In this document: in pieces, positions 21,037 through 24,532 of the stretch
Position numbering within the stretch: the stretch's first letter is position 1
Layout: every line of letters begins with the position of its first letter
DNA from: Lacipirellula parvula
GTDB taxonomy: Bacteria; Planctomycetota; Planctomycetia; Pirellulales; Lacipirellulaceae
NCBI RefSeq assembly: GCF_009177095.1
Contig: NZ_AP021861.1
Coordinates: 2,772,501 to 2,836,500 of the forward strand
DNA length: 64,000 bases
Direction of reading: 5' to 3'
Made by a program: the position numbers and the translations under genes
The notes under the pieces: generated by a model
The model's database searches: none
The model's input: only the letters and a program-made list of their open reading frames with translations
What the model was told of the DNA's origin: nothing

Positions 21037-22284
21037 ATGGCGGTATCACGCTCCAACGTTTCGATCATCGGTATTGGCGACGACGGGCTCGACGGCGCTT
21101 CCGAAGCCGTTCGCCGCATCATCACTGAGGCGGACTTGCTGGTTGGTAACGACCGCGTGTTGGCGCTCGTCCCCGGCAACGTGACGGAACGGCTCGTCCT
21201 CGGCGCCGACGTCGAAGCGGCCGCCGACCGCATCGCCGCCGAACATGGACGCGTCGCCGTGCTCGTTTCGGGCGACCCGCTCTTCTACGGCTTGGCCCGC
21301 TATCTCTGCGATCGCGTCGGCATCGAGCGCTGCGAAATCGTGCCGCACGTCAGCAGCATGCAACTCGCCTTCGCCCGCGTGAAGGAGAGCTGGGACGATG
21401 CTTACCTCACCAACCTTGCGAACCACTCGCTCGAAGCCGTCGTCGAGCGGATCCGCACGGCCGAGAAGGTCGGCCTGTTCACTACCGACGAGCATGGCCC
21501 CGACGCCGTCGCAAAGGCCCTCGCGAAGCGGAAGATCGACTACTTCACCGCCTACGTTTGCGAGAACCTCGGCGCCCGCAACGAACGCGTCACCCGCGGT
21601 TCGCTCGCCGACATCGCCGGACAGAAGTTCGACCCGCTCAATGTGATGATCCTCGTCCGCAGCAGCGACGCCCCCGACCGCCCCCGCGACGCCTCGGTGC
21701 GCAGCCTGTTCGGCAACCCCGACGAGGCGTTTGTTCAATCAAAGCCGAAGCACGGCCTGCTCACCCCGGCCGAAGTCCGCGCCGTCGCCCTCGCGCAAAT
21801 GGCGCTCTCGCCGCGGAGCATCGTGTGGGACGTCGGCGCCGGCAGCGGTTCGGTGAGCGTCGAAGCCGCGCTGTTGGCGCCCGCCGGGCAAGTGTTCGCC
21901 ATCGAACAAGACGCCGAAGACGTCGAACTCATTCGCGAGAATGCTGACCGCTTCGCCGCCGAGAACGTGACGCCGGTCGTTGGTCGCGCCCCTGAAGTGT
22001 GGGCCGACCTGCCCGATCCCGACGCCGTCTTCATCGAAGGGAGCGGCCGCGAAATCGCGCGCTTGGCAGAACTAGCGTTCGAACGCCTCAAACCGGGCGG
22101 CCGCTTGGTCGCAAGCGTCTCAAGCATCGAGGGCCTGCACGAAGTGAAGGCGAACCTCGCCGCTGCCACCTCCGACGTCAACGTCTGGATGCTAAGCGTC
22201 GCCCGCGGCACCGACCAACTGCAACGCCTGCGCCTCAACGCGCTCAACCCCGCGTTCCTAGTCTCCGCCACCAAAACGGCCTAG
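21037..22284 (+). CDS. cobL: Precorrin-6Y C5,15-methyltransferase (CbiE-CbiT fusion)
   Basis: 415 residues. The N-terminal half (about 8-205) is a tetrapyrrole SAM methyltransferase of CbiE type: VSIIGIGDDGLDG, ADLLVGNDRVL, VLVSGDPLFYGLARYL. The C-terminal half (about 230-410) is CbiT, a class I methyltransferase: LTPAEVRAVALAQMALSP, then the SAM site VWDVGAGSGSVSVEAA, and AVFIEGSGRE. Fused CbiE-CbiT (CobL) methylates C5 and C15 and decarboxylates the C12 acetate chain in corrin synthesis. No other cobalamin genes are next to it. It is convergent with the cupin gene across a small CCGGAGG/CCTCCGG hairpin. Confidence 0.9.
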   Translation: MAVSRSNVSIIGIGDDGLDGASEAVRRIITEADLLVGNDRVLALVPGNVTERLVLGADVEAAADRIAAEHGRVAVLVSGDPLFYGLARYLCDRVGIERCEIVPHVSSMQLAFARVKESWDDAYLTNLANHSLEAVVERIRTAEKVGLFTTDEHGPDAVAKALAKRKIDYFTAYVCENLGARNERVTRGSLADIAGQKFDPLNVMILVRSSDAPDRPRDASVRSLFGNPDEAFVQSKPKHGLLTPAEVRAVALAQMALSPRSIVWDVGAGSGSVSVEAALLAPAGQVFAIEQDAEDVELIRENADRFAAENVTPVVGRAPEVWADLPDPDAVFIEGSGREIARLAELAFERLKPGGRLVASVSSIEGLHEVKANLAAATSDVNVWMLSVARGTDQLQRLRLNALNPAFLVSATKTA

Positions 22285-22709: not shown

Positions 22710-22792
22710 CGCATTTGCTCCTGAGTGGTGTCTGTTGGAGTTCAGGATTTCAACCGAACGGTTGGCAACAGTTCGGCAACCACGGAGCATAC

Positions 22793-24532
22793 ATGCGTTA
22801 CCAAGCCCTCGCCACCGACTACGACGGCACGATCGCCCATAACGGCGTCGTCAGCGAGAGCACCGTCGCCGCGCTGCGCGATCTGCTCGCCACAGGCCGC
22901 CGGCTGATCCTCGTCACCGGCCGCGAGTTGCCCGAACTCCTCGAAATTTTCCCCGAGGTCGATCTGTGCGAATGGGTCGTCGCCGAGAACGGCGGCCTCC
23001 TCTATAACCCCGCGACGAAGGAAGAACGTCCCCTCGCCGAGGCTCCCTCGCCAGCGTTCTTGGAAATGCTCCAAGCCCGGCAGGTCGAGCGCGTCTCGGT
23101 CGGCCGGGTGATCGTCGCCACGTGGGAGCCTTACGAAAACATTGTTCTCAAATCAATTCGCGACCTCGGTCTCGAAAGCCAAGTCATCTTCAACAAAGGC
23201 GCCGTCATGATCTTGCCGGCCGGCGTCAACAAAGCGAGCGGCCTCACTGCGGCACTGAAAGAGATGGGCCTCTCGCCGCACAACGTCGTCGGCGTCGGCG
23301 ATGCCGAGAACGACCACGCGATGCTGAAGCTCTGCGAGTTCTCGGCCGCCGTCAGCAACGCGCTTCCCGCGGTGAAGGAGACTGCCGACTTCGTCACCTC
23401 CGCCGATCACGGCGATGGCGTCGCCCAACTCATCGCCGCGATGGTCGAAGACGACCTCGCGAAGTTCGATGACCGCCTCGCACGTCACCACCTCATCCTC
23501 GGCAAAGCAGGCAATGACGAAATCGCGATTCCCTCGCACGGTCCCTGCATTCTCATCTGCGGGCCCTCGGCCAGCGGCAAGTCGACGCTCGTCACGCGGA
23601 TTGTCGAAACGCTTGAAGAGCAGCATTACCAGTTCTGCCTGTTCGACCCCGAAGGCGATTACGAAAACTTTGCCGGCGCCGTCGCGTTCGGCAGCCCCGA
23701 CGCGCCGCCGGCCGCGGACGAAGCGCTTCAACTCCTCTCGAACCCCGACGCCAACGCGATCGTCAATCTCACCGGCCTGAAAATCCCCGATCGCCCGCCG
23801 ATGTTCCTCAGCATGCTCGGCCCGCTGCTGCAAATGCGCACCCGCACCGGCCGGCCCCACTGGCTGATCCTCGACGAGGCCCACCACCTCCTCCCCGCCG
23901 ATTGGCGCCCGCCCGAAGGCGTGGTTCCCGAGGAGTTTCAAAATGTGATCATGATCACCGTGCACCCGGAACTGCTCGCTCCGGAGATGCTGCAGCGCGT
24001 CGACATGCTGCTGGTCGTCGGCAAGGACGCCGAGGAGATGATCGCCACCTACTGCGACGCTTCCGGCCTCGACGCGCCGGCGCTTGAGCCCGCGCACCTA
24101 CAGCAAGGCGAAGTGCTGCTTTGGAAGCCAGGCAACGAAGAGCCGCCGCTGAAGATCGCCGCGTACCCCTGCAAAACCGAACGCCGCCGCCATCGCCGCA
24201 AATACGCCGAGGGAGAACTCCCTCCCGACCGCAGCTTTTTCTTCCGCGGCCCCGGCGCCAAGCTCAACCTGCGGGCGCAGAATCTCATTATGTTTCTGCA
24301 AATCGCTGAAGGCGTGGACGACGAAACGTGGGAGTACCACCGCCGCGCCGGCGACTATTCAAAATGGTTTGGGTCGTGCGTCAAAGACGACGACCTCACT
24401 GCGGCGGCGAAGCAAATCGAATCGCTCGCCGCCCTCGATCCCCACGAAGGCCGCGAGATGCTGCGGGCTGCCATCGAGCGGGAGTATATCCTGGCGCCAA
24501 CGTCAAAAATGCCCGTCGTCGGCGCGAGTTGA
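22793..24532 (+). CDS. HAD phosphatase - P-loop ATPase fusion protein
   Basis: 579 residues with two recognisable halves. Residues 1 to about 230 are a Cof/SPP-type HAD phosphatase: motif I TDYDGT (Asp9 and Asp11), VTGRE, a cap region, NKASGL with the motif III Lys, and GDAENDHAML. Residues from about 245 to 490 are a HerA/DUF87-like ATPase: Walker A GPSASGKST at 257-265, FDPEGDYENF, and Walker B LILDEAHH with Asp361/Glu362. The last ~90 residues (FFFRGPGAKLNLRAQNLIMF, DDETWEYHRRAGDYSKWF) form a further conserved tail. Start: ATG after CGGAGC. A sugar-phosphate-type phosphatase joined to a DNA-pump-like ATPase is unusual; the joint function is not known to me. Confidence 0.82.
   Translation: MRYQALATDYDGTIAHNGVVSESTVAALRDLLATGRRLILVTGRELPELLEIFPEVDLCEWVVAENGGLLYNPATKEERPLAEAPSPAFLEMLQARQVERVSVGRVIVATWEPYENIVLKSIRDLGLESQVIFNKGAVMILPAGVNKASGLTAALKEMGLSPHNVVGVGDAENDHAMLKLCEFSAAVSNALPAVKETADFVTSADHGDGVAQLIAAMVEDDLAKFDDRLARHHLILGKAGNDEIAIPSHGPCILICGPSASGKSTLVTRIVETLEEQHYQFCLFDPEGDYENFAGAVAFGSPDAPPAADEALQLLSNPDANAIVNLTGLKIPDRPPMFLSMLGPLLQMRTRTGRPHWLILDEAHHLLPADWRPPEGVVPEEFQNVIMITVHPELLAPEMLQRVDMLLVVGKDAEEMIATYCDASGLDAPALEPAHLQQGEVLLWKPGNEEPPLKIAAYPCKTERRRHRRKYAEGELPPDRSFFFRGPGAKLNLRAQNLIMFLQIAEGVDDETWEYHRRAGDYSKWFGSCVKDDDLTAAAKQIESLAALDPHEGREMLRAAIEREYILAPTSKMPVVGAS

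Follow-up and report, generated by a model that had tools for sequence, protein, structure and literature searches.

The question raised by this locus is why one protein should join a HAD phosphatase to a HerA/DUF87-like ATPase and to a further conserved tail. The sequence-only reading of the DNA had offered two answers, namely that the ATPase regulates the phosphatase or that the pair forms a ring-shaped device acting on sugar phosphates or nucleic acids. The window, that is the whole 64,000-nucleotide stretch of Lacipirellula parvula DNA analysed here, holds an open frame at positions 22715-24532 of the plus strand (the strand of every feature given below), which starts with TTG in the ORF list and has an in-frame ATG at 22793. 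Since the alignments of homologues begin at this ATG (MRYxALA...), 22793-24532 are the correct bounds of the gene, which encodes 579 residues.

Architecture and spread of the fusion

The three-domain identity of the protein at 22793-24532 is firm: an HAD-IIB phosphatase domain is followed by a HerA-type ATPase core and an OrfY-type tail, as seen from the ORF, Pfam, the alignment and the predicted model. The fusion of phosphatase and ATPase is thus real and the earlier naming of its domains correct, both being borne out by Pfam, NCBIfam, fold matches and an alignment of 56 homologues (A2) on which all residue-conservation counts given here are based. The AlphaFold2 model of the full protein, made with 56 sequences, has a mean pLDDT of 89.7, and a C-terminal extension (residues 567-579, 24491-24529) is of low confidence (pLDDT < 50).

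A search for this architecture finds it to be widespread. At least 370 stretches of the GTDB species collection encode a relative, and coverage is near full length in 79 of the best 80 of these, the other one (L054) ending at a contig end. These best 80 include members of the Planctomycetota, Cyanobacteriota, Nitrospirota, Pseudomonadota, Acidobacteriota, Chloroflexota, Verrucomicrobiota, Myxococcota, Melainabacteria, Elusimicrobiota and Fibrobacterota. Within the window's own phylum some match occurs in 122 of 294 genomes, and 12 of the 294 hold the near-full-length architecture (G200 in two contig pieces); the listed matches in the remaining genomes are partial and lie in the HAD part. The retention of all three parts across many phyla indicates that the fusion is more than chance. 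The two functions had been called normally unrelated, which is correct for the two families but not for their pairing, since the latter is a widespread and conserved architecture.

The nearest relative of the window protein is that of Lacipirellula limnantheis (82%), and a divergent clade of the phylum (L009-L012) likewise keeps all three parts. On plasmids, the query is covered to 80% or more in 11 of 48 matching records; among these are a Sinorhizobium pSymB, plasmids of Synechococcus, Aminobacter, Paraburkholderia, Caballeronia and Agrobacterium, and a Nonomuraea record. A Nostoc plasmid (C052) encodes a HAD domain that is 58% identical but lacks the ATPase, and annotated copies of the fusion are named only HAD(-IIB) hydrolase. 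In the tree the window protein falls within a planctomycete set of six rows (100/100) and the cyanobacteria alone, among the eight phylum groups listed, form one clade; 27 of 53 inner branches are open and the bootstrap has not settled. Because the other phyla are scattered in this tree, horizontal transfer is likely, if unproven. While the architecture is present in databases and its kinds of domain are themselves known, the literature matches listed include no description of a HAD domain, HerA core and OrfY tail in one protein or of a role for it, an earlier mention in the FtsK-HerA literature being possible. What is new here is the identity of the tail as an OrfY/DUF5752 unit, an ATPase that lacks HerA parts and the finger, and a setting among stress genes in several lineages with no constant partner.

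The HAD motifs looked for were DxDxT, the Thr or Ser of motif II, the Lys of motif III and the GD...D of motif IV, and the HAD-IIB domain (residues 1-224, 22793-23464) carries all of them. Its catalytic residues are kept in all 56 homologues: motif I is D9-x-D11-x-T13 (22817-22831; each residue 56/56), motif II is T42-G43-R44 (22916-22924; T42 in 52 of 56 with Ser in the other four, G43 and R44 in all), the motif III lysine is K147 (23231-23233; 56/56) and motif IV is G169-D170...D174 (23297-23314; G169 invariant in A2, D170 and D174 56/56). The window protein scores above the cut-offs of the broad models Hydrolase_3 (PF08282; 110.4 bits against 20.9), S6PP (37.1 against 20.3, Pfam) and HAD-IIB (TIGR01484; 91.7 against 41.8, NCBIfam). 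It remains below those of the narrower NCBIfam models Cof (TIGR00099; 103.9 against 137), the SPP subfamily (TIGR01482; 80.9 against 107.15) and the phosphoglycolate phosphatases PRK01158 (103.5 against 198) and TIGR01487 (100.9 against 122.75), and indeed below that of every equivalog model among the best 25 of its 46 NCBIfam matches. Since the curated Cof, SPP and phosphoglycolate cut-offs are not reached, family membership gives no substrate. Residues 2-224 superpose on 1wr8 over 221 aligned residues (VIA-align Z 27.5, 2.4 A), 1wr8 and 4dwo being the top solved folds among the rows listed; the phosphatases MpgP, trehalose-6-phosphate phosphatase and sucrose phosphatase rank lower in the same list. 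Elsewhere in the window's genome PF08282 matches three short C-terminal stretches, in frames of 182, 938 and 802 residues, its five places in the genome including two inside the fusion gene.

It is possible that the protein is simply a phosphatase of phosphoglycolate or nucleotides that is regulated by ATP and has no tie to solutes. PRK01158 and TIGR01487 are among its closest full-length NCBIfam models, and the CARF-HAD protein Chp, a HAD phosphatase gated by a regulatory domain, hydrolyses dATP, ATP and IMP according to the available part of PMC12715507. However, the scores with both phosphoglycolate models lie under their cut-offs, and a near-full-length architecture in 12 of 294 genomes of the phylum is a patchy spread unlike that of a housekeeping enzyme, so that we consider this explanation unlikely. 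A more appealing scenario is that the HAD-IIB domain would be a working enzyme whose substrate is a small phosphorylated metabolite, with a sugar phosphate or a phosphorylated solute precursor as the likeliest kind.

The ATPase core and the tail

Residues 230-464 (23480-24184) form the HerA-fold P-loop core and superpose on the HerA structures 9x1m (VIA-align Z 21.1, 2.8 A, 222 aligned) and 4d2i (Z 20.9, 3.0 A, 220 aligned). While the single window protein scores under the DUF87 (PF01935) cut-off, with 19.0 bits against 23.2, all 56 members of A2 match this family at E<=0.1, the best at 6.4e-10. Walker A is GPSASGKST (residues 257-265, 23561-23587; G257, G262 and K263 56/56) and Walker B is LILDEAH (residues 358-364, 23864-23884; E362 56/56, D361 54/56); between them lies DPEGDY (residues 285-290, 23645-23662), with D285 in all 56. 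In the 4d2i alignment the invariant K263, D285 and E362 fall on HerA K154, D176 and E356, the role of D176 being taken from the available part of PMC4351679. The core is therefore likely to bind ATP.

Hydrolysis is another matter. In the part of PMC4351679 available, the trans finger R381 of HerA forms a salt bridge with E356, and R381K is without ATPase activity. Counted along the 4d2i alignment, R381 falls in the stretch that connects Walker B to strand 4, which is 34 residues long in HerA but 23-27 in all 56 homologues. In the window protein it comprises residues 363-388 (23879-23956), and although 27 of the 56 rows have some arginine within it, none is conserved: at most 8 of 56 rows have Arg in any one of the 26 window columns. 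Where strand 4 of HerA ends in 'QRP', most rows have 'VHP', with His at position 391 in 46 of 56 and Arg in three, all from the divergent clade of the window's phylum. Degenerate ATPase motifs in homologues had been named as evidence that would speak against the first interpretation; on this point the outcome is mixed, Walker A and B being intact and the arginine finger not conserved. R349 (53/56) and R466 (56/56) are candidate replacements, and either could substitute for the missing finger.

The core has also lost more extensive parts. The HerA alignment starts at HerA residue 119, the HAD domain standing in place of the first 118 residues, which we take to be the HAS barrel. HerA residues 184-298, a presumably helical insert of 115 residues that separates the D176 strand from the next one matched, correspond to 19 profile positions here. 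Because the N-terminal part, the insert and a conserved arginine finger are all missing, a HerA-type DNA translocase is unlikely, and HerA-style hydrolysis and translocation are not to be expected from the residues present unless another arginine takes over. The ring-shaped device is weakened on the same grounds, and we dropped it, together with the DNA translocase, as the main reading. The reading favoured here is that the ATPase may regulate the phosphatase.

HerA-like ATPases also occur in defence complexes (8xav, Z 20.5), and the window protein has weak PADLOC matches to mad8 (E 8e-11) and HerA (E 4.5e-4), so that it could be imagined as an anti-phage protein in which a HerA ATPase is paired with an effector phosphatase. 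However, the best PADLOC stretches barely exceed the P-loop region (residues 249-295 and 254-295), the restriction-type genes near annotated plasmid copies amount to a single type I subunit beside the Synechococcus copy, and no recurrent defence partner was noticed in the neighbour clusters of 89 loci. A defence role is extremely improbable.

The remaining part of the protein had been described as an extra conserved tail, and conserved it is, with F482, F484, H516 and W525 invariant in all 56 homologues. The tail of the window protein taken alone (residues 390-579) matches no Pfam family, DUF5752 (PF19027) included; among 18 homologues, four match DUF5752 at E<=0.1, the best at 0.019. The profile built from 35 tails finds DUF5752 proteins (hhalign probability 95.2, E 2.6e-8) and OrfY of Thermoproteus tenax, 4cso (hmmsearch E 6.3e-9). 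A smaller profile of 16 rows gives E 3e-8 against 4cso, and a profile of six DUF5752 proteins itself matches 4cso at E 1.3e-42. Since the fold search with the whole model gave only HAD-type and HerA-type rows among those listed, the tail was predicted by itself (mean pLDDT 87.9). This lone model superposes on 4cso with Z 11.4 (VIA-align, 95 aligned, 2.2 A), the next row having Z 4.8, and in Foldseek 4cso fills the top three rows at E values (0.19-0.53) that are not significant alone. By sequence, profile and predicted structure, the tail (residues about 468-566, 24194-24490) is one unit of the OrfY/DUF5752 fold. It is a single unit of about 100 residues that matches two stretches of 4cso, and it differs from a two-unit protein of about 210-230 residues, the DUF5752 model having 208 positions.

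OrfY is presumably a member of a trehalose operon. The depositors of 4cso label the structure a transcription factor, and OrfY is not named in the available part of the T. tenax paper examined; the literature searched yielded no tested role for the OrfY/DUF5752 module. A clue comes from the stand-alone genes. DUF5752 matches above cut-off in 6 of 59 genomes of the window's phylum, and 11 DUF5752 loci were taken from 11 genomes, four of them of one genus. A homologue of the TreT-like trehalose synthase adjoins DUF5752 in 10 of these 11 loci (the exception is L147), an OtsA stretch lies inside the short fetched locus in seven of 11, and in some loci OtsB is also clustered with DUF5752, TreT and OtsA. 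The TreT identity rests on NCBIfam NF041139 for one locus, L119 (E 1.9e-115, below the equivalog cut-off), and on tblastn from L119 for the others. One genome (G168) encodes the fusion on one contig and a DUF5752-TreT pair on another. In Nitrospira sp. BO4 the island of the fusion itself includes GT4, DUF5752 and TreT genes, of which TreT is some 4 kb upstream. The tail thus points toward trehalose or sugar metabolism. Since OrfY-like units also occur within long proteins that resemble receiver and PEP/pyruvate-binding proteins (domain names assigned by eye), the tail is not specific to trehalose and rather marks sugar and phosphotransfer proteins more generally.

Gene neighbourhood

In the window the fusion stands alone. 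It has a divergent cupin gene on one side, and after it come, on the other strand, a MORN gene and then a UvrD-like helicase; together with CbiE/CbiT-like genes, these neighbours do not make up a solute operon. Some 2 kb upstream there is a GlgX-like gene. Nor did inspection of gene neighbours in other genomes turn up a constant partner: across 89 loci the most frequent cluster of neighbours consists of response regulators and is present in 13 labels, where the fusion itself clusters in 67, a label being one per genus or bin and the genes having been picked crudely (longest or conserved ORFs) with some spurious antisense frames.

A marker scan of 98 loci (77 labels) gives lower bounds, as it used one query per marker and many loci extend less than 10 kb a side; it apparently counts one place twice (L040 and L166) and includes the HAD-only Nostoc locus. 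It found GT4 in five labels, Ku in four, GDE, GlgX, catalase, Dps, hemerythrin and CBS in three each, LigD, Mn-catalase and PRC-barrel in two each, USP, OtsA, TreT and DUF5752 in one each, and TPP in none. The commonest marker, SDR dehydrogenase (8 of 77 labels), is given no weight because it was also the sole marker found in the controls, in two of six stretches.

The annotated plasmids allow a comparison with control stretches. Six of the eight fetched plasmid loci were used, Nonomuraea (no features) and the HAD-only Nostoc plasmid being left out, with one hand-picked control stretch per plasmid. Stress-type annotations make up 16 of 123 features near the fusion against 0 of 224 in controls (Fisher 3e-8), and GT4, trehalose or debranching annotations 7 of 123 against 0 of 224 (6e-4); the 123 features include the six fusion genes, the PLSDB gene tables are incomplete, and carbohydrate kinases and sugar transporters, which do occur in the controls, fell outside the keywords. 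Since the keywords were chosen after the focal loci were known and the counts were made by eye, this enrichment is suggestive only. The fusion gene does sit among stress genes in several lineages. GT4 genes recur at close range as well: in Caballeronia and Trinickia a GT4 gene lies directly upstream in the same direction, ending 15 and 38 bp before the fusion, and in Aminobacter a GT4 gene diverges from the fusion, with OtsA, GT4 and debranching genes adjoining.

Some of these neighbours would fit an enzyme of DNA-end processing, in which a HerA-like motor recruits either a 3'-phosphatase or a hydrolase of phosphoglycolate to DNA breaks, the gene lying in repair islands. The HerA fold of the core, the resemblance of the HAD domain to archaeal phosphoglycolate phosphatases and the Ku (4/77 labels) and LigD (2/77) genes nearby are all consistent with this, and the Nitrospira BO4 island likewise contains a LigD piece. 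However, Ku and LigD were not found near most of the 98 loci, the solved structures that match best are small-molecule-type HAD phosphatases, and a conserved finger, the HerA N-terminal part and the insert are missing. A role at DNA ends is therefore highly unlikely.

The GT4 genes lend themselves to a different proposal, that the fusion is the trehalose-6-phosphate phosphatase of an alternative TPS/TPP pathway in which a nearby GT4 acts as the synthase and the OrfY tail binds it. The tail itself, the clusters that DUF5752 genes form with TreT and OtsA, joined at some loci by OtsB, and the Aminobacter locus argue for this, as does the precedent of Sulfolobus acidocaldarius, for which PMC7688234 reports a GT4-family TPS and a non-canonical HAD protein with TPP activity. 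Yet OtsA or TreT lies near only two of the 98 loci and the TPP marker near none, and the HAD domain reaches the cut-off of no equivalog model in the best 25 of 46 matches. A search of the window's genome gave no GT20 (OtsA), with a control that was positive in 6 genomes out of 14; nor did TreT match there, in a search without a positive control. As far as these two kinds of synthase go, this speaks against trehalose-6-phosphate in that genome. The proposal is accordingly unlikely. Trehalose or solute chemistry is hinted at by the tail, by the GT4 genes nearby and by the island of Nitrospira BO4, but the missing GT20 and TreT point the other way, and we therefore speak of a phosphatase of a sugar phosphate or solute precursor and not of a trehalose-6-phosphate phosphatase.

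A possible role and comparison with known systems

How might the three parts act together? Pared down to the P-loop domain and lacking the usual arginine finger, the HerA-type core may serve as a cis ATP-binding switch or a slow ATPase, and such a switch would couple the energy state of the cell to the phosphatase. The OrfY-type tail may act in docking or sensing and so tie the enzyme to sugar or solute metabolism, a role proposed because stand-alone OrfY/DUF5752 proteins adjoin trehalose synthase genes. We regard it as quite possible, and adopt it tentatively, that the protein is a stress-linked, ATP-gated and OrfY-tethered phosphatase of a sugar phosphate or phosphorylated solute precursor in stress or solute metabolism. 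The mechanism itself, gating by ATP combined with docking through OrfY, we infer from the domains and hold with much the same reserve.

A bolder version, which we find appealing but doubtful, is that a HerA-type motor core was stripped to its P-loop, lost its finger and now works within the protein as an ATP switch on a metabolic phosphatase, OrfY being the address tag, in a family found across many phyla in stress islands. If this is true, a core of the FtsK-HerA superfamily serves metabolite control and not DNA pumping. The fusion also offers a handle on the OrfY/DUF5752 module, whose proteins adjoin trehalose synthase genes. Since the gene is carried on plasmids of cultivable rhizobia, Burkholderiales and cyanobacteria, these proposals are directly testable.

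Several known systems resemble the window protein in part. The TPS/TPP pathways of T. tenax (PMC3634074) and S. acidocaldarius (PMC7688234) bring a HAD phosphatase and a GT4 together in one solute pathway, and the complex-forming GT4 of T. tenax is activated via complex formation, all this in the available parts of the two papers; the proteins described there have no ATPase domain, and GT20 and TreT were not found in the window's genome. The archaeal-type phosphoglycolate or HAD-IIB phosphatases PH1421 (1wr8) and TA0175 (1kyt) share the fold of the HAD domain (Z 27.5 and 24.1), and phosphatases of this type are alike in size and catalytic motifs, PRK01158 matching residues 1-218, but the HAD domain of the window protein scores under their family cut-offs and is fused to two more domains. 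OrfY (4cso) and DUF5752 (PF19027) have in common with the tail the fold and the pattern F-x-F...H...D-[FY]-S-x-W...D-x-x-LA, whereas DUF5752 proteins are about twice as long and 4cso has two matching stretches where the window tail is a single unit. With the hexameric DNA translocase HerA (4d2i, 9x1m) the protein shares the P-loop core fold, the Walker A Lys, D176 and the Walker B Glu, but it carries an N-terminal HAD domain, has mostly 'VHP' for 'QRP' in its family, and lacks the insert and a conserved finger. CARF-HAD effectors such as Chp, as described in the available part of PMC12715507, likewise combine a HAD phosphatase with a regulatory nucleotide-binding domain; Chp is a CRISPR effector with a CARF domain and membrane helices, whereas the window protein has a HerA core and an OrfY tail.

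Setting, copies and variants of the fusion gene

Immediately upstream of the fusion gene in the window lies a gene (21037-22284) that joins a tetrapyrrole methylase to a methyltransferase at its C-terminal end, an ordinary arrangement of the CbiE/CbiT type. In Trinickia (L113:8904-9962), Aminobacter (L033:8748-9794) and Caballeronia (L035:7811-9985) the fusion gene is adjoined by one family of GT4 glycosyltransferases (MxIAQVAxLYESVPP...) that falls under the cut-off of every NCBIfam model it matched. The fusion occurs twice in one planctomycetotal genome, G106: one copy is locus L006 and the other lies on contig 43. A Nostoc sp. C052 plasmid encodes a HAD domain with 58% identity to that of the window, without ATPase and tail (L038:10001-10666), which is either a truncation or a naturally stand-alone form.

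OrfY-like units outside the fusion

OrfY-like units also occur within longer frames at eight loci (L136-L142 and L146), and the four that were read (L136, L138, L140 and L141) look like phosphotransfer proteins combining a receiver with a PEP/pyruvate-binding part.

Stand-alone DUF5752 genes and trehalose synthesis

Of 11 loci with a stand-alone DUF5752 gene, 10 (L119-L124, L145, L149, L150 and L154) have a gene for a TreT-like trehalose synthase next to it, often with OtsA preceding the pair; L147 alone lacks such a neighbour. The genome G168 has the fusion gene on contig 2 (L005) and a DUF5752-TreT pair on contig 4 (L154). In Nitrospira sp. BO4 a single island (L065:1-11722) holds a LigD piece, GT4, DUF5752 and TreT together with the fusion gene. 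DUF5752 matches the solved OrfY protein of Thermoproteus tenax (PDB 4cso) with an E-value of 1.3e-42, a link that merits entry in the DUF5752 annotation.
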